20,349 nt of DNA, from positions 1 through 20,349 of IMG/VR virus record IMGVR_UViG_3300033553_000374. One strand, written 5' to 3'. The position numbers were made by a program, and so were the translations under genes. Position 1 is the stretch's first letter, and every line of letters begins with the position of its first letter. Below, piece by piece: positions 1 to 19,640 of this stretch. The notes beneath the pieces are model-generated. The model saw only the letters and a list, made by a program, of their open reading frames with translations, was not told the DNA's origin and did no database searches. Source of the stretch: a virus.

Positions 1-642
1 ATCGGGGTTTTTGCTTTCTTCGTCACGTTCGCGCATGGCCTCCTCGGTCAGCGCTTCAAGTTCGTACTCGGGCATCACCTTGTCGGCGGTTTCGACATCA
101 AATTTATCAATGATGAATTCACGCGTCCGGCGCATCATTCGTGCCAGCACGGTTTCGGTGTAACCGGAAAACTCAAATTCCATGCCGGTGTCGTAACCGG
201 AGAACTCCATGGCTTTGAGGCCCGGAATGGCAGGGGGCACTGCACCGAGAAAACCAACGTGGCCGACTTTGAAGCCGTCGCTGGTTTGGCGGATGCGCAC
301 AGATCGATTTGGGAAACGCTTGTTTTCAACCATATCGGCGAACTGCGATTCAACATCGCTGAACTTGCCGAACAGTGAATCACCTTCACGCTTTAATTCT
401 GACGACCAGCCATAAGCGGGGGCATCAACCTTAGGGTGGCCAATAACAATCGGGAACGATTCATGGTTGCTCACCATCTCGTCCAGATCATCGGTTGTGA
501 AGTTTTGAGTTTGTCCCAGGGAATCAGTCTGCTCACCAGCTTTAAAAAGCTCGACGAAATCGTCAAAGCCTTTAAAGTCGAGCACCGACTTAACGGCGGC
601 TCTAACAGAGCGGGGTTTGGTCTTTTTGTTTTTTGAGTTCAT
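1..642 (-). CDS. Mu gpI-like prohead protease/scaffold, 5' part
   Basis: Open reading frame on the minus strand from ATG at 642 that runs off the left edge; 214 residues are visible. It reads MNSKNKKTKPRSVR, then a segment with IVIGHPK, PAYGWSSELKREGDSLFGKF, RFPNRSVRIR and FLGAVPPAIPGLK. The GH-x(5-8)-GW, REGD-LFG-F-DV and LGA-PPA-PGL pattern is typical of phage capsid maturation proteases of the Mu gpI type, which cleave or scaffold the procapsid; the major head gene normally follows. There is no Shine-Dalgarno sequence before the ATG, but a 20-bp dyad lies exactly 36 nt upstream. In Mu-like genomes this gene follows the MuF head gene, whereas the full MuF here is at 17928-19121 on the other strand. 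Family call is firm; whether it belongs to the same phage is inference. Confidence 0.8.
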   Translation of the reverse strand, partial: MNSKNKKTKPRSVRAAVKSVLDFKGFDDFVELFKAGEQTDSLGQTQNFTTDDLDEMVSNHESFPIVIGHPKVDAPAYGWSSELKREGDSLFGKFSDVESQFADMVENKRFPNRSVRIRQTSDGFKVGHVGFLGAVPPAIPGLKAMEFSGYDTGMEFEFSGYTETVLARMMRRTREFIIDKFDVETADKVMPEYELEALTEEAMRERDEESKNPD

Positions 643-938
643 GCTGCGCATTTTGGAGTGCACAGCATAAATTGAAGAGGAGGGAAATATTTCCCCCCGG
701 CTTTTTCAGGTCCGGTAAATGCAGATTAGAGCAAAGCGAATTGAAACTCAACAGATAATTTTCGAGCGATAATACCGAACCTACGGCACAGAGGCAGAAC
801 TGAGCCTGCAAAGCCGCCCCTGACCCGATTCAAAAACCATTCAAAATCAATTGTAAGCCGTTATTGCTCTATAAGTCGTGCGGGTATGGCTTTAATCGCT
901 TACAAGGGCACACAGGGGCTGTTTTGTGGTTGTTAAAT
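643..938. other. Non-coding stretch between gpI and the secreted-protein gene
   Basis: Besides the dyad at 679-698, this stretch holds an inverted repeat: TTGTAAGC at 851-858 and GCTTACAA at 898-905. I see no convincing gene on either strand. If the central segment of the prophage is inverted, one breakpoint should lie between about 700 and 1660, so this region is a candidate for it. No inverted homology to 19122-19500 was found by eye. Confidence 0.5.
679..698 (-). promoter_or_regulatory. 20-bp dyad upstream of gpI, candidate late-activator site
   Basis: Read on the minus strand the site is GGGGGGAAATATTTCCCTCC, near-perfect dyad symmetry around ATAT. It matches the dyad at 11884-11903 in 18 of 20 positions, and both lie 36 nt before a start codon. 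Mu has C-activated late promoters in front of lys and I, so this is a candidate site for the Mor-like activator encoded at 9797-10198. A TATGCT hexamer 9 nt downstream could act as a -10 element. A hairpin acting on RNA is an alternative reading. Confidence 0.55.
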
Positions 939-1457
939 TTACCAGGTAATCTCTTCTTCTGGCTTTAATATCTTTTTTCCATTTCCGTATTTCTTCTCGA
1001 CCTGTTCGGCAAGTTGTCTGCCGGCACTTTCCGCATAGCTGGCCACTTCGGCATATGGGCCATATTTAATATTACCGCTCATATACATGCCGGCAAAGCT
1101 GGCATGTAAACGAATCAGCTCAGCTAAGGCTGCGGTCTGATCATCTGGCCCATTGAACATAGCCGCACTTCGATGCGAATCAATGCGTTCATGGATGTAC
1201 CATGATCGAAGCTGATCGGCGCCAGGCCTTTCGTAGGCCGCTCGATTTGAATCCCAGATATTGATTAGATTATGCAACCCTTTAATACGTTGCCATAGGT
1301 CAACCAGCCCCAGCTCGTCAACATCGTCGTCTATTAACGGGTATTCCTGAATGAACGCCGTAGCCTGGGTGACGTATGATTCTTCTAATTCATCAAAGGT
1401 CATTGCATAAGCAACGCTTGAAGTCAGTAATACCAATATGACGATTAAACTTTTCAT
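939..1457 (-). CDS. Small secreted protein of unknown function
   Basis: 172 residues from ATG at 1457, chosen because AAGGAG lies just upstream and because the protein then begins with a classical signal peptide: MKSLIVILVLLTSSVAYA, with a likely cut after AYA. A longer reading to 1586 would run back through repeat DNA and is rejected. The mature part is acidic and mostly helical in appearance, with several Trp and Tyr and no recognisable domain; it should be periplasmic or exported. It sits between the gpI gene and the repressor block and has its own ribosome site. It could be a lysogenic-conversion (moron) gene or a stray host gene; I do not recognise the family. Confidence 0.7.
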   Translation of the reverse strand: MKSLIVILVLLTSSVAYAMTFDELEESYVTQATAFIQEYPLIDDDVDELGLVDLWQRIKGLHNLINIWDSNRAAYERPGADQLRSWYIHERIDSHRSAAMFNGPDDQTAALAELIRLHASFAGMYMSGNIKYGPYAEVASYAESAGRQLAEQVEKKYGNGKKILKPEEEITW

Positions 1458-1558
1458 TCCATTCTCCTTATTAATTAATGTAATTTCCGCCACACCCACG
1501 GTGGGATCGGTGCAGCCTGTCCCCACAGATTCAACCCGGCCAGCTTCGCAGCTGTTTC

Positions 1559-1654
1559 GCCGTAGGGCGCAATAACCATAAGGCATTGCGCCGCATGTAG
1601 TTTACTCTAAATGCTTTCCATTCGGCGTAATGCGCTGCGCTTATTACACCCTAC
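1559..1654. repeat. Pair of inverted REP-like palindromes
   Basis: Unit one (1559-1593) has 8-bp arms GGCGCAAT and ATTGCGCC. Unit two (1623-1654) carries the related sequence GGCGTAAT ... ATTACACC in the opposite orientation. Both end in the GTAGGGYG-type edge typical of short palindromic intergenic repeats in proteobacterial chromosomes. Phage DNA rarely carries such pairs, so this spot may be host DNA or a junction, or may have been carried in with the secreted-protein gene. Confidence 0.6.
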
Positions 1655-1678
1655 TGAGCTGTGGTTGGGTTTGTTTTA

Positions 1679-1981
1679 CTATGGCAACACTGCGTCTGGC
1701 GTTACTGCCAGACCATCCCTTTGCAACTGCCTATCATTCAGCGTTCTGACAGTGCAGCGGCATTGTTTGCGGTGCGGCGGCCAGTGAGCACTTAACCAGG
1801 GGTTGTCCAGCCGCACAATGATGCCATCGAGTGCCGTACATTCTGGATGATCTCTATTGTCACCTACTGACTGCATCTGTGCGTAGGGGCGAAATTCAGC
1901 GGTGCGCCGAAAATCATTCCACTTTGCATCCATAGCTGCCTTCCTTAATCGATCATCCTCATCTGTCCACTTCCTGCTCAT
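1679..1981 (-). CDS. Stand-alone MuF core (head morphogenesis) fragment
   Basis: 100 residues. It aligns with residues about 100-178 of the full MuF protein at 17928-19121: LRKAAMDAKWNDF with LRTAHMAGRWQQF, FRPYAQMQSVGD with TRPFLQYLTAGD, LDGIIVRLDNPW with WNGLVLHIDDPF, and QCRCTVRTLNDRQL with GCRCNVRSLSARQM. The DNA is not similar, so it is not a recent copy of that gene. It lacks the N-terminal helical part and any C-terminal domain. Its ATG lies inside the repressor gene (23-nt overlap, different frame), so it should be translated with the repressor in lysogens. It may be a decayed gene end fused by deletion, or a small protein with a job in lysogeny. Homology is clear; function is unknown. 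Confidence 0.65.
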   Translation of the reverse strand: MSRKWTDEDDRLRKAAMDAKWNDFRRTAEFRPYAQMQSVGDNRDHPECTALDGIIVRLDNPWLSAHWPPHRKQCRCTVRTLNDRQLQRDGLAVTPDAVLP

Positions 1982-2363
1982 TTTGTTCTTCTCCTTTCTT
2001 CAGTGTTTTGTTGGTACCTTTGGCAGCTGACTGATTAACCTTTGCATCAATCATTAACCGGAACCATTGTTGATCCTCATCATTCAATGATCGGTAGCCG
2101 TCGATTAGGACTACCTCGTCAGGTTCAAGCATGATCGGTTGTGGTGCGTCTTTATAGCGGCCTGCCAGCACATAAAACACATCGAACTTTTCTGCGTCCT
2201 TCATTAAGGCGACCAGCGCATCAGATGGAATCTTTGTTCCTCTCTCCCACGCAATAACAGACGTCTTCGCAACATTGCAGATCTCTGCGACGCGGGCATG
2301 ACTTAATTTGAGCCGTTGACGCTCTTTCTTGAATCTAAAAAAAATATCGTTTTCGCTACTCAT
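1959..2363 (-). CDS. XRE-family phage repressor
   Basis: 134 residues transcribed divergently from the early operon, as is the c repressor of Mu-like phages. Residues about 10-55 form an XRE/Cro helix-turn-helix (RLKLSHARVAEICNVAKTSV, then IAWERGTKIPS). The C-terminal half is short and polar, with no peptidase (LexA-type) domain, so cleavage-driven induction is not expected from the sequence. The start codon at 2363 lies beside two copies of GTTTTCGCTAC, the likely operator, so it probably controls itself and the early promoter. No good ribosome site precedes the ATG. The 3' end overlaps the MuF-fragment gene. Confidence 0.8.
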   Translation of the reverse strand: MSSENDIFFRFKKERQRLKLSHARVAEICNVAKTSVIAWERGTKIPSDALVALMKDAEKFDVFYVLAGRYKDAPQPIMLEPDEVVLIDGYRSLNDEDQQWFRLMIDAKVNQSAAKGTNKTLKKGEEQNEQEVDR

Positions 2364-2397
2364 TTATATTGACAGGTAGTGTTTTCGCTACCATAAT
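2349..2397 (+). promoter_or_regulatory. Early promoter with repressor operators
   Basis: TTGACA at 2369-2374 and CATAAT at 2392-2397 are separated by 17 bp, a near-consensus sigma-70 promoter pointing at ner. The spacer is itself an imperfect palindrome, GGTAGTGTTTTCGCTACC (2375-2392). GTTTTCGCTAC occurs at 2349-2359 and again at 2381-2391, exactly 32 bp apart (about three helical turns), with the first copy abutting the repressor start codon. This is the arrangement expected for operators that let the repressor shut the early operon and itself. Confidence 0.75.
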
Positions 2398-2429
2398 CAC
2401 CCCAAGACACTCATAAAGGAAGGTACGAC

Positions 2430-2768
2430 ATGCAAGATACCACAATCAACCAGCGGCTGGCACTGGTGTTTAGCCAACCAGGCACGATCCCGGCAGACCG
2501 GCTCTATGCGCTGGCGCTGCTCAAAATCACCCAGCGCGATATCGCAAGACAAGCCGGGGTCGAACCAGCCACCGTCTACCAGACCCTGTACGACATCATT
2601 ACCTCGTACAACGTCGCCTCTACCACCGCTGCAATGACCGGCCTCACCCTGAACCAGCTCTGGCCGTGCGGTAAATATAACCAGGCACCGAGACAAGCCC
2701 GGAGCAAGGTCGCCCAACCTGACTCAAATCGTCCAGCGTTGGACGATTTGCCCGCGAAGGTGGTGTGA
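2430..2768 (+). CDS. Ner-like DNA-binding early regulator
   Basis: 112 residues; ATG at 2430 with AAGGAAGG upstream. Residues about 27-70 form a helix-turn-helix (LLKITQRDIARQAGVEPATV), and LTLNQLWPCGKY resembles the end of Mu Ner (IWPSRY). Ner damps early and repressor promoters during lytic growth. It is the first gene of the rightward early operon, as in Mu. It has a polar tail of about 30 residues beyond the usual Ner length, and the tail coding DNA contains a 26-bp palindrome. The stop overlaps the next start (TGATG). Confidence 0.7.
   Translation: MQDTTINQRLALVFSQPGTIPADRLYALALLKITQRDIARQAGVEPATVYQTLYDIITSYNVASTTAAMTGLTLNQLWPCGKYNQAPRQARSKVAQPDSNRPALDDLPAKVV
2725..2750. repeat. 26-bp palindrome A inside ner
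   Basis: Arms CAAATCGTCCA and TGGACGATTTG (11 bp, perfect) flank GCGT. It shares its CAAAT/ATTTG ends and CAGCG centre with palindrome B at 3322-3347. There is no following T-run, so a simple terminator is unlikely. A protein-binding site or mRNA hairpin at the end of ner is more plausible. Confidence 0.6.
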
Positions 2769-3031
2769 TGCGAGCAAAAACAAAATTAAGGAAACAAGCA
2801 TTGGCGGTGATCGAGACCGCCGTCTACTTAGACTCGTACCTCCTTGGTAGGAACGGCATGTACGACGTCAGCCTCGGGTATCAGGTCAACCGCCAACTTT
2901 ACCCGTTCCAGTGCCGACGCGATCTCAAAAAACACAACAGGGACTTAAAACATCTTGTCCAGCAAATGGAGTGGGCAATTCAACGAATCAATCATCTATC
3001 AGTATCTGAAGAGGACTTCATTAATGACTAA
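2768..3031 (+). CDS. Small basic early protein, unknown
   Basis: 87 residues from the ATG at 2768, which overlaps the ner stop by one base and so suggests coupled translation. It is rich in Lys and Arg with a helical, amphipathic look (QCRRDLKKHNRDLKHLVQQM). No domain is recognised. The end overlaps the next gene by 8 bases. Its place between ner and the transposase suggests an early accessory role. Confidence 0.6.
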   Translation: MRAKTKLRKQALAVIETAVYLDSYLLGRNGMYDVSLGYQVNRQLYPFQCRRDLKKHNRDLKHLVQQMEWAIQRINHLSVSEEDFIND

Positions 3032-4034
3032 ACAGCTACCCGCAAAGCTCCCCAAGCAATTCACCGATCTGATGAACAATATTGGATTATTACCTGTCGC
3101 CGAGCTTCGCAAATTAAACCCGACAGACCGATTAACCGAGGCCGCGAAAGGTCAGCACCTGCAAGTGATCGGCGCTTTGTATAAAGGGTTGGCGCTTGCT
3201 GGGTTAAAAGAAGAGATGCGCCACGGGGAATATGGGCCAGCGTTGGCGAATTTCAACATTAAACCGGGCGACGCGTACCGTGCTGTCAACACGCTGGAGC
3301 TGGCATTACGCATCAAGCCTTCAAATTTATCAGCGCTGATAAATTTGGACGCCTCTAAAATTTACCTACTCGTGCCATGGCCCACTGATGAGGTTGACGC
3401 CTTTTTAGAAGGTGATCGGATAAATGGTATAACTATTGATGACGCCCGCGATGCCACAGTGCGCGAAATGGAACACCTGCTCAAGACAAACGCCGACGGC
3501 ATGATCGATGCGCAGAAAAAAATCGACAGGCTATCGCAAGACAACCTGGCGCTAACTGAAGAGGCGCTGGCGCTCAAGCACCAGCTAGCGAATAAGCATG
3601 CTGGGCGTTTTCCTGATTACGTGATGATGATACGCGATGAATCCACGGCATTGTCCAGTGAGATTGAGTTTCGCGTTGACAGTATGGAGCAGCTCTATCA
3701 GCACCTGCAAGATCAGGCAGTGCTCATTAAAACAGACAAGCGGGCAAAGCGGGATTTGCAGATTGCGCAAATCAGTCTGTATCACAACCTTAACGGCGCG
3801 ATAGCACGTGGCATGGTGCTACTGACCGAGCTACAGGAACAGTTCGGCGAGATTGTCACTGGCACGCTGACCGACTCTGTGGCGATGTATACCGCCGAGG
3901 AAGCGGCCTATGCCGCCAAGGATCGCGAGGCGCTACTGCAACTGGCAAAAGCCGATGCACAGTTGCGCGCAGACAAGCGCGAGCGGGAGAAGCCACGCGG
4001 ACGCGGCCGGCCTAACAAAGCCAAGGGCAGTTAA
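3024..4034 (+). CDS. Early protein with coiled coil and C-terminal AT-hook
   Basis: 336 residues from ATG at 3024; a longer frame start inside the previous gene is rejected because this ATG gives the usual short overlap. The N-terminal third (LKEEMRHGEYGPALANFNI and following) resembles the helical DUF3102-like phage proteins that look like partition or plasmid-replication factors. Residues about 165-205 are heptad-rich and likely coiled coil. The C-terminus ends in a basic AT-hook, KPRGRGRPNKAK, which binds the minor groove of AT-rich DNA. It is encoded two bases before the transposase gene, so a DNA-architectural or target-choice role is conceivable. Function is inferred only. Confidence 0.6.
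   Translation: MTKQLPAKLPKQFTDLMNNIGLLPVAELRKLNPTDRLTEAAKGQHLQVIGALYKGLALAGLKEEMRHGEYGPALANFNIKPGDAYRAVNTLELALRIKPSNLSALINLDASKIYLLVPWPTDEVDAFLEGDRINGITIDDARDATVREMEHLLKTNADGMIDAQKKIDRLSQDNLALTEEALALKHQLANKHAGRFPDYVMMIRDESTALSSEIEFRVDSMEQLYQHLQDQAVLIKTDKRAKRDLQIAQISLYHNLNGAIARGMVLLTELQEQFGEIVTGTLTDSVAMYTAEEAAYAAKDREALLQLAKADAQLRADKREREKPRGRGRPNKAKGS
3322..3347. repeat. 26-bp perfect palindrome B
   Basis: Perfect self-complementary sequence with 13-bp half CAAATTTATCAGC. It lies inside the AT-hook protein gene, 597 bp from palindrome A and of the same length, with the same CAAAT/ATTTG ends and CAGCG at positions 10-14. A perfect palindrome of this length in coding sequence is unlikely by chance. 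It is a candidate binding site, possibly analogous to the internal enhancer near the left end of Mu. Confidence 0.6.
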
Positions 4035-4036
4035 TC

Positions 4037-5692
4037 GTGAAAGCTGCCAAAGTGGTGGACATTAATACGGGTAATGAGTTAGTTGTCGCGAAAGCGGAAT
4101 GGCAAAAACTTCCCATTCAAAAACGCGAGCTGGCTGACAGTCGCCGTCGTTTTATCACACCGGTTCTCGATCTTTGTGAGCGCGGCTTCACCAAAGCGAA
4201 GGCCATCAGGGTTTTGCTTGCGCAATTGCAATCAGCCAACTGCGAGCCCTGGCTGATGGAGCTGGCTGATACCCTGGGGCGTAATAGCAAGCCCCCAAGC
4301 AAGGCGACACTCTATAGATGGTTTTCAGACTACGAAAAAAAGGGTCTGCCCGGTCTGGTCTCAGAAACTAAAGGTCGGCAACGGCTGGACTACGGCTGGG
4401 AAGCACGGGCGCTGTACTGGCATCAGCAACCCAGCAAGTTAGCAGCAGCGGCCATCGCGGTGCTGCTGCAGGAGGAGGGCTTCGACGGCGTTAACGAATC
4501 ACGTGTGCGCCGTTACCTAAAAACACTGCCTGATGATATCGCCAATAGAAAACGTATTGGCAGTAAGTTTTACCGCGACACTCAAATGCCCTCGCGTCGA
4601 CGTGACACGAGCGTGATCCCCGTCGGGCACACCTACCAGGGCGACGGTCACACCATCGACGTTTACCTTTCACACCCACGCACCGGCAAGCCGTGGCGAC
4701 CCGAGCTGACGCTCTGGATCGACATCGGTAGTCGTTACATTGCCGGGGTGTCACTGACTGAGGCCGAGAGTTCAATCAGCACCCTGCTGTCGCTGAGCAA
4801 AGCCATGGTCGATCACGACCACGTACCGGCCTGCCTACACATCGACAACGGCTCGGGTTTTAAAAGCCAGATGATGAACGATGAATCGGTCGGCTTCTAC
4901 CAGCGCTTCGACATCAGCACCATTTTCGCTCTGCCCGGCAACTCAAAAGGCAAGGGACAGGTCGAGCGTTTCTTTCGCACGCTGCGTGATGGTTTTGATA
5001 AACGCTGGCCGAGTTACTGCGGCGACGACATGGCCGATGAAGCCATTCAACGCGTTTTGAAAAATGCGCGCCAGGGTAAAAAACCGCTGCCCGATGTACG
5101 TGACTATTTAACGGAACTGATGAAGTGGATCGAGGGTTATCACAACCGGCCGCACGGTGGCCTCGACGGCAAGACCCCCGCAGAAATGTGGGCGCTGCTT
5201 GAACGTTCACCGCTGCACATGCCTGCTGCGGCGGTTATGCGCTGCCAGACTAAACGCACAGTGGTACGTGGCAGCCTGAACGTGCACAACCGTCAATACC
5301 GGCACGCGGAACTGCAACCCTTCAACCGACGGGAACTGGTTATTGAATACGACCTGTTTGATGACAAAAAAATATTCGCCTACACCGAAGACGGTCGAAA
5401 GATTTGCGAGCCGGAACTCACCAACAAGATTGACTACCTACCTGCCAGCCGTATCGAGGAGATGCAACAGCGCAGAGTGAAGGGACAGGTTAAACGCTTA
5501 GAAAAACATATAGAGGAAAAACGCGAGCGGTCACGGGGCAACATCAACCACGCCGAACTCGCAAACGAGATATTGGATGACGGACGGCCTAAGGCCATCG
5601 ACGCTGAATCGAAACTGATTGAGCTTGATGGCGTGACCACCGAACCGGCAGACCAGTGTGACGATATCGATATCTTCGATATCGATTATTAA
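4037..5692 (+). CDS. MuA-like DDE transposase
   Basis: 551 residues, GTG start two bases after the previous stop. An N-terminal helix-turn-helix part includes KATLYRWFSDYEKKGLPGL (89-107). The RNase H-like core carries QGDGHTIDVY (D203), LHIDNGSGF (D270) and GKGQVERFFRTL (E310). D203 to D270 is 67 residues, the same spacing as MuA D269-D336. A beta-barrel part follows (about 395-455), then a basic segment with KRLEKHIEEKRERSR and an acidic tail (DDIDIFDIDY) that may contact the MuB partner. It would catalyse strand transfer in integration and replicative transposition. The ATPase gene directly after it supports a Mu system. Confidence 0.93.
   Translation: MKAAKVVDINTGNELVVAKAEWQKLPIQKRELADSRRRFITPVLDLCERGFTKAKAIRVLLAQLQSANCEPWLMELADTLGRNSKPPSKATLYRWFSDYEKKGLPGLVSETKGRQRLDYGWEARALYWHQQPSKLAAAAIAVLLQEEGFDGVNESRVRRYLKTLPDDIANRKRIGSKFYRDTQMPSRRRDTSVIPVGHTYQGDGHTIDVYLSHPRTGKPWRPELTLWIDIGSRYIAGVSLTEAESSISTLLSLSKAMVDHDHVPACLHIDNGSGFKSQMMNDESVGFYQRFDISTIFALPGNSKGKGQVERFFRTLRDGFDKRWPSYCGDDMADEAIQRVLKNARQGKKPLPDVRDYLTELMKWIEGYHNRPHGGLDGKTPAEMWALLERSPLHMPAAAVMRCQTKRTVVRGSLNVHNRQYRHAELQPFNRRELVIEYDLFDDKKIFAYTEDGRKICEPELTNKIDYLPASRIEEMQQRRVKGQVKRLEKHIEEKRERSRGNINHAELANEILDDGRPKAIDAESKLIELDGVTTEPADQCDDIDIFDIDY
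5666..5686. repeat. Inverted repeat at the end of the transposase gene
   Basis: ATCGATATC and GATATCGAT flank TTC, giving 9-bp perfect arms that overlap the last codons of the transposase, just before the MuB-like gene. No U-run follows, so it may tune translation or mRNA decay between the two genes rather than terminate transcription. Confidence 0.4.
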
Positions 5693-5710
5693 TAATAAAG
5701 GAGAGTGTAC

Positions 5711-6757
5711 GTGAACAATACAACAATAAAACATACAAGAAGTGCTGTCGAAGTCCCTACGACCTGGAAAGACGTTTATAACGAGCAAAATAAAAAAGAC
5801 GTCGCCCGGATAATAACCTGGCTGAATGATGGACAGCTGCATGAACCCGGCTATGAAAATCAGCGCTCACAAACAAAGCTGAGCAAATCCGCCGACGTTA
5901 AACCGACTACTCTCAACACGATACTGCAGGGCAAGTACCCAAGCCCTCCGGGCAGGCATATCGAAAAAGTAATTGACATCATCACACGCGAAGAAATGCG
6001 CACCCGCGAAACCCTGGGCAACAACCCTTTTGTCGAGACCTCGGTTTCAGTTGCGGTTAATGCAGCCTGCCATCGTGCGCACATCTACCGCAACTTCGGC
6101 GTAGTCAGCTGTTACGTCGGCACCGGCAAAACGTGGGCATTAAAAAACTACATAGCATCACATCCCAACGCAATCATGATCGAAGCCACGCCCGACATGA
6201 ACACGCTGGTATTGCTGCGTGACATCGTGGAGGCCTGCGGCGCGATCGTGCACAAGAGTCACAAGTTCTCACGCGGCACCAAGGCCGACATGATCGACGC
6301 TGTAATCCGAAAGCTCAAAGGCACCGACACCCTGCTGATTCTCGACGAGGCCGAGAAAGTCACCACACAGACGCTTGAGTATGTTCGCCGCATCTCCGAC
6401 CTGGCTGAAATTGGTGTGGTGTTATCCGGCACCGAATACCTTCGACCACTGATCCGCGACCCGCGCGGCCGCTTCGGCCAGATCTCTTCCCGCGTCGGCT
6501 TCTGGCCACCGGTGATCAAGCAGATCCACTACACCGATTCACGCAAGATTGTTGACGCCGCGATCGGCGACAAGGTTGAGCTGACCGAAGAGCTGCATCA
6601 GGCGTTTTATAAAGTCTGTGATGGCTCGGCCCGAGTACTTGCCCGCACGCTGATACCCGCCGTGCATGACTACGGCATCCGCAAAGGCATCGCCATCACG
6701 CCCAAGCTGATACACACCCTGGGTGAAAAACTGCTCGGCTACGCCAAAGGTGAGTAA
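5711..6757 (+). CDS. MuB-like AAA+ target-selection ATPase
   Basis: 348 residues from GTG at 5711, preferred over GTG 5705 because AAGGAG then sits at proper spacing. The N-terminal helix-turn-helix is around KLSKSADVKPTTLNTILQGK. Walker A is YVGTGKTWAL (about 135-144) and Walker B is LLILDEAEKV (about 208-217), followed by an arginine-finger region (RDPRGRFGQISSR). In Mu, MuB polymerises on DNA, picks the target, gives immunity near phage ends and activates MuA. The final C-terminal helical part matches the MuB DNA-binding end. It lies directly downstream of the transposase. Confidence 0.9.
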   Translation: MNNTTIKHTRSAVEVPTTWKDVYNEQNKKDVARIITWLNDGQLHEPGYENQRSQTKLSKSADVKPTTLNTILQGKYPSPPGRHIEKVIDIITREEMRTRETLGNNPFVETSVSVAVNAACHRAHIYRNFGVVSCYVGTGKTWALKNYIASHPNAIMIEATPDMNTLVLLRDIVEACGAIVHKSHKFSRGTKADMIDAVIRKLKGTDTLLILDEAEKVTTQTLEYVRRISDLAEIGVVLSGTEYLRPLIRDPRGRFGQISSRVGFWPPVIKQIHYTDSRKIVDAAIGDKVELTEELHQAFYKVCDGSARVLARTLIPAVHDYGIRKGIAITPKLIHTLGEKLLGYAKGE

Positions 6758-6759
6758 CG

Positions 6760-6933
6760 GTGAACGCCGAGAACGAAGCCCAGGCGGAAGTACTGGAAGA
6801 ACAGGAAGAGCGGGCGATGCAACGCCTTCACGGTGTACGCCATGCAGGCGACCGTTACATTCAACCGCTGCACCATCACAAATACACCATCACGCGCAAG
6901 CTGCATACGCGTGACAAGCTGAGGAAAAAATAA
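6760..6933 (+). CDS. Small unknown early protein
   Basis: 57 residues from GTG at 6760, two bases after the MuB stop. It has an acidic, Gln- and Glu-rich start (EVLEEQEERAMQRLHGV) and a basic His-rich end (PLHHHKYTITRKLHTRDK). The stop overlaps the next ATG (TAATG). This frame fits the tight spacing better than the alternative frame at 6723. No family recognised. Confidence 0.55.
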   Translation: MNAENEAQAEVLEEQEERAMQRLHGVRHAGDRYIQPLHHHKYTITRKLHTRDKLRKK

Positions 6934-7520
6934 TGGATCATTTTGTTGAAACTCATAAAGGCTGGCTTGTTGATTTATCTGAGCCAGACCCCGCGTCGAT
7001 ATGCATTGATGATATCGCAATCGCACTATCAAAGCAGGCGCGCTACAACGGCCACAGCCGCGTAGCCTGGAGCGTCGCCGACCACTCACTGCTGTGCGTC
7101 GACTACGCCCGGCAGATGTTTGGTGCAGGCGACCTGATGTCGCTGTGGATGCTGTTGCACGATGCGCATGAAGCGTACACCGGTGACATTATTTCACCGC
7201 TCAAGTACATGCCGGAATTGATCGATGCTATTACCGTTATTGAAGAACGGCTGCAACGCGCGATTGAAACGTCCTGCGGTATCGGTAGGCCACCACCAGT
7301 CGTGCAACAAGTCATAGAGCTTGTTGACCAGTGCGCACTAGCAGTTGAATCACACCACATGATTCACAGCAAGGGTGAACATTGGGGCTTGCCACCTGTG
7401 AACAAAGACGCGCTCGATCTGTTCGATGAACCCGTCAGCGAGGAGGCAACACGAGCGCGTTTCATCAACTGCTACAACCGCTGCCTCGACAACATTAAAA
7501 CAGGAGTAAAGGCCGCATGA
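6933..7520 (+). CDS. HD-domain phosphohydrolase (YfbR-like)
   Basis: 195 residues. HD-superfamily metal ligands are visible: NGHSRVAWSVADHSLL (residues 39-54), LLHDAHEAYTGDIISPLK (74-91, with the H-D pair at 76-77), and a later D in ELVDQCALAVE. Proteins of this type are dNMP phosphatases or dNTP hydrolases and are common in temperate phages; a role in nucleotide pools during replication is likely. The fold resembles DatZ of 2-aminoadenine phages, but no purZ is seen here, so that role is not supported. It is coupled to its neighbours by ATG/stop overlaps. Confidence 0.8.
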   Translation: MDHFVETHKGWLVDLSEPDPASICIDDIAIALSKQARYNGHSRVAWSVADHSLLCVDYARQMFGAGDLMSLWMLLHDAHEAYTGDIISPLKYMPELIDAITVIEERLQRAIETSCGIGRPPPVVQQVIELVDQCALAVESHHMIHSKGEHWGLPPVNKDALDLFDEPVSEEATRARFINCYNRCLDNIKTGVKAA

Positions 7521-7798
7521 ACGCATGTATTCAAAACATCCACTCTGATGTCGTTAGCAAATTCACCCGCTGCAAAAACGCCGAGCTGGCTGCCGAGCAT
7601 TTATCAGACCAGGGCTTTGAAGTGATCAGCGTCGAGCTGCACCGCAGAACGCCGGTGGTCTGGATCGCGAACTCAATGAATTGCAAAACACTGCCGGGCG
7701 CCATGATCGGGCGTATGCAAACTGAGCGCGGCAGATTGTGTGTCTACGCTGCCGCGCTCTATGAGTGCCAGGTGCGCTGGATGGTGGTGGGTCATTAA
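7517..7798 (+). CDS. Small unknown protein
   Basis: 93 residues; the ATG overlaps the HD gene stop (ATGA) and its stop overlaps the next ATG. It is compact, with an alternating beta/alpha look: FEVISVELHRRTPVVWI, then GRLCVYAAALYECQVRWMVV. No known domain is recognised, but the operon coupling on both sides supports a real gene. Confidence 0.55.
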   Translation: MNACIQNIHSDVVSKFTRCKNAELAAEHLSDQGFEVISVELHRRTPVVWIANSMNCKTLPGAMIGRMQTERGRLCVYAAALYECQVRWMVVGH

Positions 7799-11598: not shown

Positions 11599-11601
11599 AG
11601 G

Positions 11602-11844: not shown

Positions 11845-11881
11845 TACCCCGATCATAGCCGCACCCTCCCTCCTAACTCTT

Positions 11882-11905: not shown

Positions 11906-11939
11906 CTACCCCCGCACTCTATCCGCCATGATTCATGGC

Positions 11940-12443
11940 ATGAATACTTTCGACGAAGCATTAAGATTTGTACTTGCCGCTGAAGGCGGTTATGTCAACG
12001 ACCCTCTGGACCGGGGCGGTGAGACTAATTTCGGCATATCGAAACGCGCCTACCCCACGCTCGACATTAAAAACCTGACAGAGTACGAAGCCTCAAACAT
12101 TTACTACCGCGACTACTGGCTGCACTGCCAGTGTGACAAATTGCCCCCGCAGTTTGCGATTGCTGTTTTCGGTTCGGCGGTTAACCACGGCCCGACGCGC
12201 GCCATCAGACTCCTGCAGCAAACAATCAAGTCGGTTGATGACGGCATTATGGGGCCTGCCACTTTGGCGGCGGCGGGCGCCAATAACAACCGTTACATGC
12301 TCGGTCGTTTTTTAAGTTTCCGCGCTAAGTATTACTTGTCCATCGTCACACGCAAGCCCTCACAAACAAAATTCTACGGCGGCTGGATGCAGCGCCTGTT
12401 CGACCTGCAGCAGTTTATTCTGGAGGTGACGCATGCCGACTAA
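11940..12443 (+). CDS. Endolysin, GH108-type muramidase
   Basis: 167 residues from ATG 11940; ATG 11928 is possible, but 11940 gives the same 36-nt spacing to the dyad as the gpI gene. The GH108 signature is clear: FVLAAEGGYVNDPLDRGG (E15 the likely catalytic acid), then ETNFGISKRAYP. The C-terminal part resembles the peptidoglycan-binding end of this family (QQTIKSVDDGIMGPATLAA). It would cleave murein at lysis. There is no signal peptide, so it depends on the holin encoded next, whose gene overlaps by 11 bases. Confidence 0.85.
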   Translation: MNTFDEALRFVLAAEGGYVNDPLDRGGETNFGISKRAYPTLDIKNLTEYEASNIYYRDYWLHCQCDKLPPQFAIAVFGSAVNHGPTRAIRLLQQTIKSVDDGIMGPATLAAAGANNNRYMLGRFLSFRAKYYLSIVTRKPSQTKFYGGWMQRLFDLQQFILEVTHAD

Positions 12444-13362: not shown

Positions 13363-13580
13363 TGAGTGACGAAATCCACCGAGCATTAGGACGTATCGAA
13401 GGCGAGCTGAAAGGTATTCGCAAAACGCAGACAACGCATAGCGTGGCGCTGGTTGCTATAGATGAGCGCGTCAACGCCAACGAGGTCAAGGCTGCGAAAA
13501 ACGGAGCTATTACCGGCGGGCTGATGGCCGGTTTCGTTATGATCTTGAAGGAGTCTTTTCATTTGGGTGGGCAGGGTTAG
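13362..13580 (+). CDS. Small membrane protein with N-terminal coiled coil
   Basis: 72 residues; the ATG overlaps the previous stop. A helical charged part (EIHRALGRIEGELKGIRKTQ) precedes one likely membrane segment (AITGGLMAGFVMIL). This shape occurs in small phage proteins near the lysis genes. Function unknown; an accessory lysis role is possible. Confidence 0.55.
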   Translation: MSDEIHRALGRIEGELKGIRKTQTTHSVALVAIDERVNANEVKAAKNGAITGGLMAGFVMILKESFHLGGQG

Positions 13581-13581
13581 G

Positions 13582-14082
13582 ATGGCTCACAAGAAAGACG
13601 TGCGTACCGCTGTCAGACGATCGTATGTAAATGATCGCTTATCACTGTCAGCGGCGGCGGATAAAAATAACGTGCCACACGTCACTGCTCGCAGCTGGAA
13701 GAAACGCGACAAGTCTGATGGTGACGATTGGGACAAAGCGCGCGGGGCAACTCGTATGGCTGAGGGTGGCATCGGTGAGCTGACCTCGCAGGTGATTGAA
13801 GACTTTGCGATGTTGTTCCAGTCGACCATCGAAGATTTAAAGAGCGCGCAGGATATGGACCCGATTAAAAAGGCCGAGGCGCTGTCTCGGCTAAGCGACG
13901 CGTACAGCAAGACCATGAAAGCAGCGGGTGCCGGCAGCCCGCAAATCGCACGGCTCTCCGTCGCCATGGAAGTTCTTCAGGAGCTGGCCGGATTCATCCG
14001 CAAGCACTCCCCCGATGACTTGCCCAGGTTCACAGCGATACTGGACCCCTTCGGTCAACACATTGCCAGGGTGCTCGCATGA
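13582..14082 (+). CDS. Terminase small subunit-like (DUF1804)
   Basis: 166 residues from ATG 13582, just after the previous stop. It begins MAHKKDVRTAVRRSYVNDRL and continues with SLSAAADKNNVPHVTARSWK, a helix-turn-helix that fits the DUF1804 family (Mu gp27-like), thought to be the DNA-recognition subunit of the packaging motor. The C-terminal part is helical. It overlaps the large terminase gene by 4 bases, the expected pairing. Confidence 0.8.
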   Translation: MAHKKDVRTAVRRSYVNDRLSLSAAADKNNVPHVTARSWKKRDKSDGDDWDKARGATRMAEGGIGELTSQVIEDFAMLFQSTIEDLKSAQDMDPIKKAEALSRLSDAYSKTMKAAGAGSPQIARLSVAMEVLQELAGFIRKHSPDDLPRFTAILDPFGQHIARVLA

Positions 14083-15788
14083 GCCGAGGCGAAGAGCGGG
14101 AATTTCTAGACAGTCTGGATGAACTCCAGACTTCTTTGCGTAATGAGATCGACGCCTTCGCGCTCGGGCTGGATGCCACGCCCGAGGCGATTAAAGCCCG
14201 GCGGCTGAAAGTGCTGCAGGGCGACTTCAGGTTTTTTGCTTATAACTATTTTCCGCACCATATTCGTGGTGAGTCGTCACTGTTTCAGGCGCACTTTTGT
14301 GAGCGTTTTGCAAAGCTCTTGCCGCTGGATGGTGGCTGTAAAGAATGGTGGGTTGCACCGCGCGGCGAATGTAAATCATCACTGCTCACCAAGATCGGGC
14401 CGTGCTTTGTAGCTGTGCTCGGCATGCTGCAACAGAAGTCTATTCGCGATGAAGTGGGGCTTAAAAATAAGCCGAACTTTAACGACTACATTATTCTGCT
14501 TGGCGCTGAAACAAAGATGCCCACTAAGTTGCTGGCCGTTGTAAAGACAGAGCTTGAAAGCAACGCGGCGTTAAAGCTGGATTTCCCCGAAGCCTGCGGC
14601 CGTGGCACGTCGTGGAAGGTAAATGAGATCGTCACCCGCACTAACGTCAAGATCGAGCCGTTCGGCGCAGAGCAGGCAATTCGGGGTACTTTCCACGGAG
14701 CGTCACGACCGAAGCTGCTGTTCCCGGATGACATGATTACAGATAAGGAAGCAAAGAGCCCGACCGAGCGTGATAACCGCTGGAACTTTCTCGAAGCGGC
14801 AATTGATTATCTGGGCCCGCCGGATGGTTCGGTGAAGCTGATGGGTGTCGGTACCATTTTAAACAAGGACGATATTATCAGCCGCGCCAAGAACACCATC
14901 GGCCATGTCGTGCATCACTTCAAAGCCATTGAGAACTACCCGGACAAAATGGAGTTGTGGGACGAGTGTGAGGAACTGATGCGCAACGCGGACAAAGCGG
15001 CGGGTGAGTTGCTGCTCGAAAACACCCCGTCTTATCGTTTTTATCTGAAGCACAAAAAAGCCATGAACCGGGGCGCGGTGACTTCGTGGCCGGGTGTGCG
15101 CACGCTGTATTCATTGATGCACGCGCGCGCCAAGAATCGCCGCACATTCGGCACTGAGATGCAGGGCGATGCCCGCGCCGATGAAGATAAAGTTTTTACC
15201 GATATCCATTTCTGGGTGCAGCGATTGCAGCACTGGATTTATTTCGGCGGGTGTGACCCTTCGATGGGTAAAACCGAGTCCGCCGATCCTTCGGCGATTG
15301 TGGTCGGTGGCTATGACCCGAACACGAACAAGCTGCAGGTGATTCACGCGGACATTAAGCGCCGGGTGATCAGTAAATTGGGCAGTGATTTAATCGCCGT
15401 TCAAAGAGAGTTTAATTGCCAGGCAATCGGGTTTGAAAACAACAACGCTTACGAGCATTCACGCACGTCGTTTATTACCCAGGGCGCAGCAGAAGGTGTG
15501 TCGCTGCCGCTGATCGGTGTGACCGCTACGGTTGACCCGACAGTTCGCATCGACTCCCTGGAGCCGATGATCAACGGCATGGATCCGCGCATTCTGTTTC
15601 ATTCAAGTTTGCGGGCGCTGCTGGCGGAGCTGGACGATTGGCCGGAGAAACAATCGCACCACCATTACGATGGCCTGACCGCGCTACATATTCTGTGGAT
15701 GATTTCAGTCAGCCGTGCAGGTGGCCTTCCCAAAATTCAAACCAGTTCGCGCAGCAAACGGCGCGGGCTGAACACAAGCGGTTATTAA
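14079..15788 (+). CDS. Terminase large subunit (Mu gp28-like)
   Basis: 569 residues. The ATPase domain has an unusual Walker A, WVAPRGECKSSLLTKIG (residues 91-107), and Walker B LLFPDD (213-218), then coupling motif region GVGTILNKDD. The nuclease domain starts at YFGGCDPSMGKTESADPSAI (388-407) with D393, and DDWPEKQSHHHYDGLTALH near the end supplies further acidic residues. It cuts and pumps phage DNA into proheads. A Cys in place of the usual Gly before the Lys is notable but probably tolerated. Next gene is the portal, as in Mu. Confidence 0.9.
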   Translation: MSRGEEREFLDSLDELQTSLRNEIDAFALGLDATPEAIKARRLKVLQGDFRFFAYNYFPHHIRGESSLFQAHFCERFAKLLPLDGGCKEWWVAPRGECKSSLLTKIGPCFVAVLGMLQQKSIRDEVGLKNKPNFNDYIILLGAETKMPTKLLAVVKTELESNAALKLDFPEACGRGTSWKVNEIVTRTNVKIEPFGAEQAIRGTFHGASRPKLLFPDDMITDKEAKSPTERDNRWNFLEAAIDYLGPPDGSVKLMGVGTILNKDDIISRAKNTIGHVVHHFKAIENYPDKMELWDECEELMRNADKAAGELLLENTPSYRFYLKHKKAMNRGAVTSWPGVRTLYSLMHARAKNRRTFGTEMQGDARADEDKVFTDIHFWVQRLQHWIYFGGCDPSMGKTESADPSAIVVGGYDPNTNKLQVIHADIKRRVISKLGSDLIAVQREFNCQAIGFENNNAYEHSRTSFITQGAAEGVSLPLIGVTATVDPTVRIDSLEPMINGMDPRILFHSSLRALLAELDDWPEKQSHHHYDGLTALHILWMISVSRAGGLPKIQTSSRSKRRGLNTSGY

Positions 15789-15789
15789 T

Positions 15790-17298
15790 ATGAACGGTTC
15801 AGACATCAAAAAAGCGACACAGAATGATCTTAAAAACGAGATCGCGTCGCGCTCGACAGACCCGAACTTTTACAGTGCGCTTTCGTTTTTGCCTAACCCC
15901 GACGAAGTGCTGCGCAAGATGGGCCGCTCGCAGGAAGTGTATGACGCGATCATGCTCGACTCGCATGTGATCGGTGAGATGCGCTCAGTGCGTGCCGGGT
16001 TGTTGTCGTATGAATGGAAAATTACTGCCGGTGGCCAGACCAGCGCTGATGCCGCTGCCGCAGAGTTGTGCGAAAAGATTATGTCCAGACGGCCCGATGG
16101 CAATATGCAGTGGGCAGACGTGATGTGGAACATCATGCAGGCTGCATTCCGTGGCTACCGTGCGCATGAAGTGATCTGGCAACGTGAAGGTGCTTATTTA
16201 GTGCCCGCGCGCGTCATTGACAAACCCAACCGGCGCTTTGTTTTCAGCACCGATAATGAGCTGCGATTGATTACGCGTAACAACATGGTGGAAGGTGAAG
16301 AGCTGCCGAATTATAAATTCCTGCTGTCACGGCACATGCCGTCTTTCGAGAACCCGTATGGCGTCGCTATATTCAGCGCCTGTTTCTGGCCATACACGTT
16401 CAAGCATAACGGTTTTAAATTTTTCGTTAAGTTCTGCGAAAAATACGGGCTGCCATGGGCAATCGGTAAATACCCTGAAGGCACACCTTTGGAACGACAG
16501 AACGAGCTGGCTGATAGCCTGGCTGAAATGGTTGAAGATGGCGTTGCGGCGATACCGGACGGCGGGTCGGTTGAGTTGCTGAGTGCTAAGAGCTCGGGGC
16601 AGTTGCCACAGGAACGGCTTATTGATGTTTGCAACAAGGAGATGTCGAAGGCGCTGACATCGCAGACGCTGGCAACAGAGATACAGGGCCAAGGTTCACG
16701 CGCTGCCAGTGAAACGCACCGCGAGCGGGAAGAGTCGGTAAACACATCAGATAGAGGCATTGTTAGCGACACTATCAATCAGCTGTTTCAGTGGATCACC
16801 GAGCTGAACTTCAAGGGCGCTGTCGCGCCGACATTTGAATTTTATGAAGAGGCTGAAGCCCGGAAAGACTGGGTGGAAGTATTGACCGACGCGCGCGATC
16901 TTGTGGATATCCCTGTCTCCTTCGCACATGCGCGGTTGCAAATTCCCATAGCCGAACCCGGCGAAGCTGTATTGCCACGCAGCGGTACACAGGCACAACC
17001 ACCGGCTTCAAACTTTAACCAGGGCGCGTGTCCGCACTGCAACAACCAGCACGATTATGCCAGCGGCCGCAAAGACAACATAACGGCACTCACCGATCAG
17101 GCCGCGACGCAAGCCGATGAACTGATAGCGGACATGGCTGACTCAATCAAAGCCCTGCTCGATGAAAGCGACACGCTGCTGGATTTTCAGGAACGGCTAA
17201 ACGTGGCCTACCCTGATTTGTCAACAGACAAGCTGAATGAAATGACAACGCTGGCGATGATGTCGGGATTGTTGGATGGGATGGATAGCGCATCGTGA
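15790..17298 (+). CDS. Portal protein (DUF935, Mu gp29-like)
   Basis: 502 residues, start one base after the terminase stop. Typical DUF935 features are NFYSALSFLPNPDEVLRKMG, LDSHVIGEMRSVRAGLLSYE, WAIGKYPEGTP (about 225) and GQGSRAASETHREREES (about 300). It forms the dodecameric ring at the head vertex through which DNA enters. A CPHCNNQHDYASG knuckle near residue 415 is a lineage-specific feature. Length fits the family. Confidence 0.92.
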   Translation: MNGSDIKKATQNDLKNEIASRSTDPNFYSALSFLPNPDEVLRKMGRSQEVYDAIMLDSHVIGEMRSVRAGLLSYEWKITAGGQTSADAAAAELCEKIMSRRPDGNMQWADVMWNIMQAAFRGYRAHEVIWQREGAYLVPARVIDKPNRRFVFSTDNELRLITRNNMVEGEELPNYKFLLSRHMPSFENPYGVAIFSACFWPYTFKHNGFKFFVKFCEKYGLPWAIGKYPEGTPLERQNELADSLAEMVEDGVAAIPDGGSVELLSAKSSGQLPQERLIDVCNKEMSKALTSQTLATEIQGQGSRAASETHREREESVNTSDRGIVSDTINQLFQWITELNFKGAVAPTFEFYEEAEARKDWVEVLTDARDLVDIPVSFAHARLQIPIAEPGEAVLPRSGTQAQPPASNFNQGACPHCNNQHDYASGRKDNITALTDQAATQADELIADMADSIKALLDESDTLLDFQERLNVAYPDLSTDKLNEMTTLAMMSGLLDGMDSAS

Positions 17299-17369
17299 GC
17301 GTGATCTGGTTCGCTTTGTTTTTAATACTGACGGTGTTCATGATGCCGCCGCCAGCGGGAGGTGTTTAA
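17295..17369 (+). CDS. 24-residue hydrophobic peptide
   Basis: A GTG at 17295 overlaps the portal stop. The frame gives one membrane-spanning stretch, VIWFALFLILTVFMM, followed by PPPAGGV and a stop immediately before the next gene. The 3' end contains GGAGGTG, the ribosome site of the next gene. It may be a real micro-protein or a leader for coupling. Support is limited to composition and position. Confidence 0.35.
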   Translation: MSVIWFALFLILTVFMMPPPAGGV

Positions 17370-17370
17370 G

Positions 17371-17679
17371 ATGCCGGTTACAACATTTTTAAGTGGTGAA
17401 CCTGCTGCTCATAGTGACAAAGATCTTGCCGAACTAATTGATGAGATGTGCGAGCTGACTGGAAAAAAGTGGTCTGTTAGAACAATTGTCTGTCACGTTA
17501 CTAAACCGTGATTCGGGCCACCCAAGCAACACACTTACACAGAACTCTTTTTGAAAATGGATGACACTGATGGATTTCATGAATACCAGGTATTCATGTG
17601 CGTTTCAACCATAGGGGAAGCGAAGGCTTATTTAATCGGTGCCTTAGGTCAATTAAAGAAAAACAATGCTAACACCTGA
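17371..17679 (+). pseudogene. Phage gene interrupted by an in-frame UGA
   Basis: ATG 17371 has a strong GGAGGTG ribosome site. The frame reads 46 residues (LAELIDEMCELTGKKWSVRT, then CHVTKP), meets TGA at 17509-17511, and continues open for 56 more residues (FGPPKQHTYTELFLKMDD, VFMCVSTIGEAKAYLIGALG) to a stop at 17677-17679. Both halves look coding, and the full frame overlaps the next gene start at 17666 as its neighbours do. A one-base change of TGG (Trp) to TGA explains it best. UGA readthrough or a sequencing error is possible. The family is not recognised. Confidence 0.65.
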
Positions 17680-17941
17680 TCTCATAAACGGCCTGTTTGA
17701 ATGCGTTGGCGCGCTGGTGCTGATGATTAATGTGCGGGTGCTGATCCGCGATAAAGTGCTGCGCGGTGTGCATATTCTGCCGACGATTTTTTATACCGGC
17801 TGGGGAATATGGAACCTGTTCTATTACCCCGCGCTCGATCAATGGTTCAGTTTCTTTGGCGCTGCTGCAATTGTTACTGTTAATGCTGCATGGGTGGCAT
17901 TGGCTATTTATTACAGCCGGAGGGTTCATGCCAACACCTGA
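17666..17941 (+). CDS. Three-segment membrane protein
   Basis: 91 residues. Hydrophobic segments lie at LFECVGALVLMINVRVLI (10-27), ILPTIFYTGWGIWNLFYY (37-54) and FFGAAAIVTVNAAWVALAIY (63-82), with the aromatic-rich middle typical of small phage membrane proteins. It sits between the portal and MuF genes and overlaps the latter by 14 bases. Role unknown; superinfection exclusion is one possibility. Confidence 0.6.
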   Translation: MLTPDLINGLFECVGALVLMINVRVLIRDKVLRGVHILPTIFYTGWGIWNLFYYPALDQWFSFFGAAAIVTVNAAWVALAIYYSRRVHANT

Positions 17942-19121
17942 CATCGGCGGCGTTCCTTTCCAGGAAGCGATTGACCATTTCCGCAGCAAGGTCAGCATAC
18001 CGACGGAGCATTTCGATGAGATGATGGGTGCGACTCATGCGAAGGCGTTCACCGTGGCCGGTGCGACTAAGATGGATCTGCTGACAGATTTGCGGTCATC
18101 AGTTGACCAGGCTATCGCAAACGGCACCACCATTACGGAATTTCGCAAGCAGTTTGACGCGACTGTTCAGAAGCACGGGTGGTCTTATAACGGCGAACGC
18201 GGCTGGCGTACGCGAGTTATATTCGATAACAATTTACGCACCGCACACATGGCCGGGCGCTGGCAACAGTTTCAGAACACAAAAGCCACGCGACCGTTTC
18301 TTCAGTACCTGACTGCTGGTGACATTCGCGTTCGACCGGAGCACCGGGAGTGGAACGGCCTGGTACTGCATATCGACGACCCATTTTGGGATATATATAT
18401 GACCCCCAATGGCTACGGATGCCGCTGCAATGTTCGTTCATTATCAGCGAGGCAGATGCGCAGGGATAAATTAGACCTGAGCCAGGCCCCTGCAATTGAG
18501 ACAACTGAGCGTATAAACATTCGAACCGGCGAGGTGTACGGAGACGTGCCCAAAGGCATCGACACCGGCTGGGACTATAACGTCGGCAAAGCATGGCTCG
18601 GACCGGAAGTGGCGTTTGGTAAAAAAGCCATGGCCCTACCTGAAGCGGTTCGAAGCTCAGTCTTGGGTGACACATCAGAATACTCGAAGCTGCTGGCAAA
18701 GCCGTTCAAGTCATGGGCAGATGCTGCATTAAAACGCGAGAGCGCAGTGGGTGAAATCCGGACAGTCGGATATCTAAACGACAAAGCAGCAACGTTTGCC
18801 GCTACGAAAAAGATCACTACAAACTCGACAATTACGATCTCCGATGCTGATTTGAAGCATCTCAATGTAGCGCTGGATTCAGCCGATGTGAGCCAGTTAC
18901 CCGCACACATCGGCACCCCGCAAGCCATTCTATGGGATAAGAAGCAGCAGCTGCTCGCGTATGTCTTAAACACTGACCCAACCGCCCAGACCAGGTTATT
19001 GGTAGAAATCGCGTTTGGTCAGAAAGACGTGGCATTAAACACAGTGAAATCCGGCGGCGTAGTGAGCCTCAAAAAATTACGTGACACAAAGAACTACAAG
19101 GTCATTGACGGTGAAATATAG
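17928..19121 (+). CDS. MuF head protein with possible C-terminal nuclease domain
   Basis: 397 residues from ATG 17928 (GGAGG upstream); a longer frame inside the membrane-protein gene is rejected. The MuF core spans about 90-178: WRTRVIFDNNLRTAHMAGRW, then FLQYLTAGDIRVRPEHREWN and NGYGCRCNVRSLS. MuF is a minor head protein near the portal, injected with DNA in some phages. Residues about 275-397 are outside the core. With ISDADLKHLNVAL, GTPQAILWD and a C-terminal SLKKLRDTKNYKV they resemble the PBECR-type nuclease domains known as fusions to MuF proteins. That second assignment is tentative. Confidence 0.82.
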   Translation: MPTPDIGGVPFQEAIDHFRSKVSIPTEHFDEMMGATHAKAFTVAGATKMDLLTDLRSSVDQAIANGTTITEFRKQFDATVQKHGWSYNGERGWRTRVIFDNNLRTAHMAGRWQQFQNTKATRPFLQYLTAGDIRVRPEHREWNGLVLHIDDPFWDIYMTPNGYGCRCNVRSLSARQMRRDKLDLSQAPAIETTERINIRTGEVYGDVPKGIDTGWDYNVGKAWLGPEVAFGKKAMALPEAVRSSVLGDTSEYSKLLAKPFKSWADAALKRESAVGEIRTVGYLNDKAATFAATKKITTNSTITISDADLKHLNVALDSADVSQLPAHIGTPQAILWDKKQQLLAYVLNTDPTAQTRLLVEIAFGQKDVALNTVKSGGVVSLKKLRDTKNYKVIDGEI

Positions 19122-19142
19122 CCTTCTACCCGGTGGCCTGAG

Positions 19143-19430
19143 ATGTCACTAATGCACACAGCCGCGCTCACTGTTCTGTTATGCACACAGGGCACGGCCT
19201 GTATAGTAGTAACCGCCCAGCCAGAAATAGCGGCGTTTTTTGAGATTAGATACAGTGCTCGGGAATACGAAACCCAGGCACTCATCAAAGCGGATCCAGT
19301 CCCGATCCCTGAGCATCGGATCGCCCCTGCGATAGCCAGCAACCATCAAGCCTGGCGATCAATCCCCCAAGAATACGGCCGAACCACCGCCATCGGCAGC
19401 GCCTCAGGATGCCGGTGGCCCCATAAATGA
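19143..19430 (+). CDS. Doubtful ORF after MuF
   Basis: 95 residues, ATG 19143, no good ribosome site. The stop lies 8 bases before a strong hairpin terminator, as for a last gene, but the composition is odd and no domain is seen. The opposite strand in the same codon phase has an equally protein-like 55-residue frame (19179-19346, with DWIRFDECLGFVFPSTVSNL). One of the two, or neither, may be real. Confidence 0.25.
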   Translation: MSLMHTAALTVLLCTQGTACIVVTAQPEIAAFFEIRYSAREYETQALIKADPVPIPEHRIAPAIASNHQAWRSIPQEYGRTTAIGSASGCRWPHK

Positions 19431-19437
19431 CCCCAAA

Positions 19438-19470
19438 AAAAGACCGCGAGCACATGTTCGCGGTCTTTTA
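19438..19470. terminator. Strong bidirectional hairpin terminator
   Basis: 12-bp perfect stem AAAAGACCGCGA / TCGCGGTCTTTT with loop GCACATGT. A run of A before the stem gives a seven-T tract for leftward transcription; four T follow for rightward transcription. It closes the rightward late operon and could also stop read-through from glmU. Confidence 0.85.
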
Positions 19471-19489
19471 ATATCACTTTAAAGGTAGT

Positions 19490-19640
19490 TTGATAGCAAT
19501 TTAAGAGTAGTTTTTTACCAGTATTAGATCTAAAAATTACCGGTAAAAAACGTTTTTTGATAATTATGTTGCATTCTATGTGTTAATCGCTCAAATCCAT
19601 TTATTCGCCTAAGTGACTAATTTATTTAGCGAATTTTTTA
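19490..19640. other. AT-rich candidate phage end
   Basis: This stretch holds GTTTTTTACC (19510-19519) and its exact inverted copy GGTAAAAAAC (19542-19551), a 14-bp palindrome AAAAAACGTTTTTT (19545-19558), and loosely repeated GTTTGATA / TTTTTTGATAATTATG motifs. Mu-type ends carry several transposase-binding sites and finish with CA; TGTTGCA ends at 19573. Host-style repeats begin by about 19700. The exact junction cannot be fixed without the other end or an empty site. Confidence 0.4.

Follow-up and report, generated by a model that had tools for sequence, protein, structure and literature searches.

Introduction

In phage KS10 (NC_011216; PMC2628397) MuF lies at one terminus with the lysis and packaging genes aimed towards it, and gpI and the head and tail genes run the other way, on the other strand, to the far end of the genome. 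When KS10 was described in 2008 its capsid genes were noted to be 'separated by approximately 11 kb' and its first approximately 17 kb 'appears to be inverted', and the split was stated to be unique to KS10 (PMC2628397). Curvibacter phage TJ1 (MH766655) shares these features, and a 2021 comparison noted TJ1, KS10 and AFS-2018a merely as not aligned on the portal gene (PMC8541194). In Mu and D3112 all modules after the repressor lie on one strand (transposase and MuB, GemA and Mor, then lysis, terminase and portal), with MuF, G and gpI contiguous, and Mu has separate late promoters before lysis and before I. Pseudomonas phage B3, also transposable and with divergent arms around its repressor, has the early block alone reversed, with MuF, G and I still contiguous. 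A contiguous MuF-G-gpI run is typical of Mu-like phages rather than defining for them, as KS10 also does without it.

Here we analyse a whole IMG/VR record of 20,349 bp ('the window'), which holds the MuF-side half of a phage and one terminus only. Similar to KS10 and TJ1, the window has MuF at a terminus related to theirs and gpI on the opposite strand near mid-genome, and its MuF is 42% identical to that of TJ1. However, the repressor and early block is turned the other way in KS10 and likewise in TJ1: in the window it is not co-oriented with gpI, the repressor adjoins gpI, and Mor (9797-10198, plus) precedes the lysis genes, whereas KS10 Mor precedes gpI. The window carries the Mu and D3112 modules from repressor to gpI, but not on one strand, and unlike in B3 its head genes are not contiguous.

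A Mu-like prophage with a split late region

Family searches of the open reading frames gave the following features:

1-663, minus: gpI-like head maturation protease, truncated at the contig start so that its 5' part remains (phrog_976, E 5.7e-54)
939-1586, minus: cargo ORF, probably secreted, with a signal-peptide-like stretch after an internal Met of MKSLIVILVLLTSSVAYA
1679-1981, minus: MuF-domain mini-protein encoded on its own, in a gene whose range overlaps the repressor gene's end (PF04233, E 2.3e-9)
1959-2363, minus: HTH repressor (PF01381, E 1.6e-5), homologue of the TJ1 repressor
2430-2768, plus: ORF at the Ner position, weak match to a phage transcriptional-repressor family (phrog_769, E 9e-4)
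4037-5692, plus: DDE transposase, MuA-like (phrog_310, E 2e-110; Mu-transpos_C)
5705-6757, plus: transposition ATPase, MuB-like (phrog_296, E 3e-62)
9349-9804, plus: GemA (PF06252, E 4.8e-23)
9797-10198, plus: Mor/C-type late transcriptional activator (phrog_836, E 4.8e-18; Pfam Mor just below the cut-off)
11940-12443, plus: endolysin, GH108 (PF05838, E 3.4e-25; phrog_315)
13567-14082, plus: TerS / DUF1804 DNA-binding protein (PF08822, E 1.7e-59)
14079-15788, plus: large terminase, TerL (phrog_38, E 1.7e-85)
15790-17298, plus: Mu-type portal, Portal_Mu (PF06074, E 8.1e-97)
17928-19121, plus: MuF minor head protein, Phage_Mu_F, the last phage gene identified on this side (PF04233, phrog_220; start by alignment)
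19669-19684, plus: phage terminus on the MuF side, ending CTAACGTCCCCCCACA, with like ends in relatives
19685-20349: host DNA, matching a bacterial contig, with the 3' part of glmU at 20028-20349 (minus)

Both a DDE transposase and a MuB-type ATPase are present (phrog_310 and phrog_296), as are GemA, a Mor/C activator, a Mu-type portal and MuF, which together place the element among the Mu-like phages. The one-strand MuF-G-gpI run is absent: gpI lies on the opposite strand, 17.3 kb away from MuF. An earlier note on this DNA had read a gpI-like gene on the minus strand at the far left and a plus-strand run of terminase, portal and MuF with no head or tail gene before glmU, and the family searches, which place that run at 13567-19121 and found no head or tail gene between MuF and glmU among the window ORFs, bear this out. 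The MuF start that it placed at 17766 moves to 17928 by alignment, and its gene list had overlooked the minus-strand mini-MuF. The ORF at 2430-2768 has homologues at the equivalent place in relatives; for the cargo ORF at 939-1586 the family searches returned no match, and the gap between gpI and the repressor that it occupies seems to be a cargo site. TerL is 62% identical to that of the relative G002 and only ~35% to that of TJ1, and the TerL of G001 is 55% identical to that of TJ1, from which it seems that the terminase has been exchanged between lineages.

The MuF-side terminus reads ...TCATTCCTAACGTCCCCCCACA, with 19684 as its final base. A like terminus closes G001, G005, G006, G007, G010 and G016, and a variant form is found in KS10 and TJ1. 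The phage boundary and right-hand breakpoint had been proposed at 19121-19573; this lies inside the phage, with 19573 ~110 bp short of the terminus that matches complete relatives. Of the TG...CA termini, the window displays the MuF-side ...CCCCACA, the other end lying beyond the contig with an expected form of TGTAGCGCGC. The five bases that follow the terminus, GCAGG (19685-19689), are expected to be the target duplication, of which the contig covers one side only. From ~19697 on the DNA has an 88% match to a bacterial contig (G166), which fits host sequence, and the glmU segment reaches ~80% at most against genomes of the G007 class. Between the phage end and glmU the host DNA carries a 54-bp repeat twice (19824-19877 and 19934-19987, 93% identical).

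The same layout in complete relatives

Comparison with related prophages, which the earlier note had called for, was made by MuF searches of IMG/VR and bacterial genomes and by mapping the relatives with Mu, KS10, TJ1 and window proteins. The window order was found in 17 further phage or prophage records (18 including the window): it was mapped in G001, G002, G005, G006 and G007, and 12 more IMG/VR records have gpI opposite MuF and the transposase on the MuF strand. The KS10 order, with the transposase on the gpI strand, was present in 19 records plus KS10 and TJ1, and 24 surveyed loci had the canonical order with gpI just past MuF on one strand, counts that are not frequencies, as the records taken into the strand comparison were picked as non-canonical. 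Because the window order recurs in 17 further records, the arrangement is not a product of chance, and with best MuF identities to the window of ~42-66%, the split-layout phages form a clade of divergent members. In the relatives, what lies to the left of gpI is that phage's own head and tail region. Two loci have a further layout in which gpI on the minus strand is followed by TerL, portal, MuF and G on the plus strand (L097, record G038, and L115, record G039); in L097 head and sheath genes lie on the minus strand as well. The gene for a Dam-like methylase differs in position among window-type phages, some carrying it at the MuF end and others at the tail end (G009 and G011 [L128-L131] versus G001, G005, G007, G010 and G016).

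Five window-type prophages have both ends visible, and all five have matching termini and perfect 5-bp target duplications:

G001: CTTGA
G005: TTTTA
G007: TCTGG
G010: CTTGG
G016: CTTCG

These complete elements argue that the split layout moves and transposes as one unit, which in turn rules out an assembly error or an event in a single genome as its source. Given that the record is metagenomic, shows one end only and has a second MuF-like domain near the junction, one might suspect a chimeric assembly or a join of two distinct prophages where gpI meets the repressor, and the relatives too are mostly metagenome assemblies. However, the same junction is found in 17 other records, one target duplication spans both ends in each of five whole elements, one copy (G007) sits within a 329-kb bacterial contig, and the second domain is that of the mini-MuF, an accessory gene that neighbours the repressor in window-type and KS10-type phages alike, so that we give next to no credence to a joining artefact.

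The mini-MuF (~75-170 aa) is the C-terminal half of the MuF domain alone, and adjoins the repressor in both the window type and the KS10 type; homologues of the window gene stand beside the repressors of G007 and of six KS10-type phages (L056, L059, L062, L064, L072 and L087). We considered the gene as a scar of the inversion and rejected this, since its homologues keep their place next to the repressor, and move with it, whichever of the two layouts the phage has. Its place beside the repressor suggests expression in the lysogen, and one guess is that it serves as a decoy, upsetting the head assembly of related phages that enter the cell.

Phylogeny and a proposed two-step history

In a portal tree of 53 proteins, for which the canonical phages were taken as the outgroup rather than the root being inferred, every split phage falls in one clade (100/100), and the KS10 type forms one clade (100/100) nested within the window type. 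A monophyletic window type was rejected (AU test, p=0.00056), and 0 bootstrap trees recovered it. The five layouts require four changes on this tree, which is the minimum. From the other half of the genome, the gpI tree likewise recovers a single split clade (98) and, among window-type phages, a single KS10-type clade (100); the KS10 clade adjoins different window-type subgroups in the two trees.

Writing E for the repressor and early block, P for lysis, packaging and MuF, and T for gpI to tail, a single inversion of E P converts the canonical layout, +E+P+T, into the window type, -P-E+T, and turning E once more gives the KS10 type, -P+E+T, an inversion count that agrees with the tree. The simplest history has two steps, in which inversion of the segment from repressor to MuF would first have turned the canonical order into the window type, and inversion of the repressor and early block alone would then have turned the window type into that of KS10 and TJ1. 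Phylogeny and parsimony support that the split arose once, and that the KS10/TJ1 layout would be a later inversion inside it. Alternatively, the two splits could be independent, with the KS10 type derived from a B3-like ancestor, as in the B3-type order the early block is already reversed and turning half the genome would give the KS10 order in one step. However, the B3-type phages branch elsewhere, with the portals of B3 and phiSHP3 far from the split clade, and given that all split phages share a single clade (100/100) in which the KS10 type branches from within the window type, we regard independent origins as quite improbable.

Two probable late operons with a predicted common operator

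Upstream of each of the two predicted late operons of the window we found a copy of one palindrome:

678-698, minus: predicted late operator 1 for the operon of gpI, head and tail, with the palindrome GGGGGGAAATATTTCCCTCCT (0 expected in shuffles)
11884-11904, plus: predicted late operator 2 for the operon of lysis, packaging and MuF, with GGGGGGAATTATTTCCCCCCT (0 expected in shuffles)

The palindrome GGGGGGAAATATTTCCC(T/C)CC has exactly two copies in the window, reading into gpI and endolysin, and none in shuffled sequences. The centre of operator 1 lies 33 nt ahead of a -10-like CAAAAT, with 7 nt more to an ATG; operator 2 is followed by a -10-like CATGAT (11927-11932) and an ATG at 11940. 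By this geometry the ATG at 642 is the likely start of gpI. In G001, G008, G010, G011, G012 and G016 each phage has its own palindrome as an inverted pair at the two equivalent places, the pair in G010 being identical at 32/32 positions. Some copies are terminator-like hairpins (with a T-run in G010 and G012). In the canonical phages D3112, RcapMu and AFS-2018a a matching pair of copies stands before gpI and before the lysis genes as direct repeats. No operator pair above shuffled controls was found in G002, G006, G007, G013, KS10 or TJ1, and none was found by the same simple search in Mu, L106, L004 or L088.

Wherever it could be read the geometry was constant: 33 nt separate the centre of the palindrome from the -10-like hexamer, and a further 6-7 nt lead to the ATG. 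This spacing puts the palindrome centre near -45 and predicts leaderless late mRNAs. For comparison, the Mor binding element is 16 bp and centred at -43.5 (PMC4390567), and in Mu the lys and I promoters are distinct, each fired by activator C (PMC4461284). The predicted transcription start is at or adjoining the ATG (642 and 11940 in the window), with like geometry in G009, G010, G011, G012, G014, G016 and G018, and judging from this spacing the gpI and endolysin mRNAs may be leaderless. As both predicted late promoters carry one palindromic operator, a single late activator could fire the two divergent operons together, a role that the Mor/C-type activator at 9797-10198 would likely fill. The late region would have comprised two transcription units from the outset, each with its own Mor/C-type promoter, and the inversion would have turned whole units with their promoters intact. 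That the late region already had two units with separate promoters is probably why a split of the head genes was tolerated.

The inverted operator copies bracket the repressor and early block, the very block that is turned in KS10 and TJ1, and recombination between them would offer a simple route to the second inversion, giving the KS10 order without damage. That this early block (~698-11884) is slowly invertible, with the late operators doubling as inverted recombination sites that carry the window type into the KS10 type without a broken gene or promoter, is improbable in our estimate, and such inversion must be rare at most because the tree shows one such change. If true, the pair of late promoters would be an engine of modular genome rearrangement.

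A fixed rather than switching segment

The earlier note had proposed an inversion of the early and packaging segment. One inversion of the repressor-to-MuF segment relative to gpI-to-tail does describe the layout relative to Mu, but it is the order of a whole clade and not an event in this prophage. As to whether it was reversible, fixed or an assembly error, the divergent clade and the five target duplications speak for fixed; neither assembly error nor, on the evolutionary scale, a switch holds. Mu itself carries an invertible G segment, divergent halves do exist, and inverted operator copies flank the early block, all of which could be taken in favour of a reversible 17-18 kb switch within this prophage. 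The layouts nevertheless track the tree with the minimum of changes, and the operator repeats lie on either side of 698-11884 rather than of the segment that had been proposed. A repeat search of the window found no long inverted repeats linking the two proposed breakpoints, and there was no invertase or recombinase among the window ORFs scanned, a scan that covered the MuF-side half of the phage. The window as analysed lacks the pairing of an invertase with inverted crossover sites at the breakpoints that marks a switch of the Gin/G-segment type, and we consider a switch very unlikely.

Discussion

Taken together, our comparative and phylogenetic analyses indicate that the window order is an old, inherited half-genome flip common to a branch of Mu-like phages, and not a switch or an assembly error. 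We are highly confident in a clade-fixed layout in which tail, head and gpI run on the minus strand up to a minus-strand repressor, and transposase, early genes, Mor, lysis, terminase, portal and MuF run on the plus strand to the phage end, with a single origin, a secondary inversion in KS10 and TJ1, and the two late operons as the probable reason that it works. Our literature search, which reached few subscription papers and limits any claim of novelty accordingly, found neither the window-type order nor a history in two steps described.

In seven complete split phages gpI starts at 0.499 +- 0.014 of genome length; in six phages of other layouts the value is 0.43-0.51. The importance of the mid-genome gyrase site of Mu has been discussed (PMC8705779). 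We do not take the central gpI as proof of a gyrase-site constraint, with which it is only consistent, since conserved module lengths alone would yield it.

The authors of the KS10 study had no explanation for its head-gene split. The split can now be viewed as a trait of a whole clade, with a history of two steps whose intermediate survives, and the window type looks like the missing step behind the odd layout of KS10. A candidate reason that the split works is that there are two late operons with their own promoters and, in this subclade, one shared operator. The canonical Mu order is consequently a poor basis for calling misassemblies or prophage ends. The split also brings within reach the question of whether the borders of transcription units, and perhaps the mid-genome gyrase site of Mu, decide where the genomes of transposable phages rearrange.
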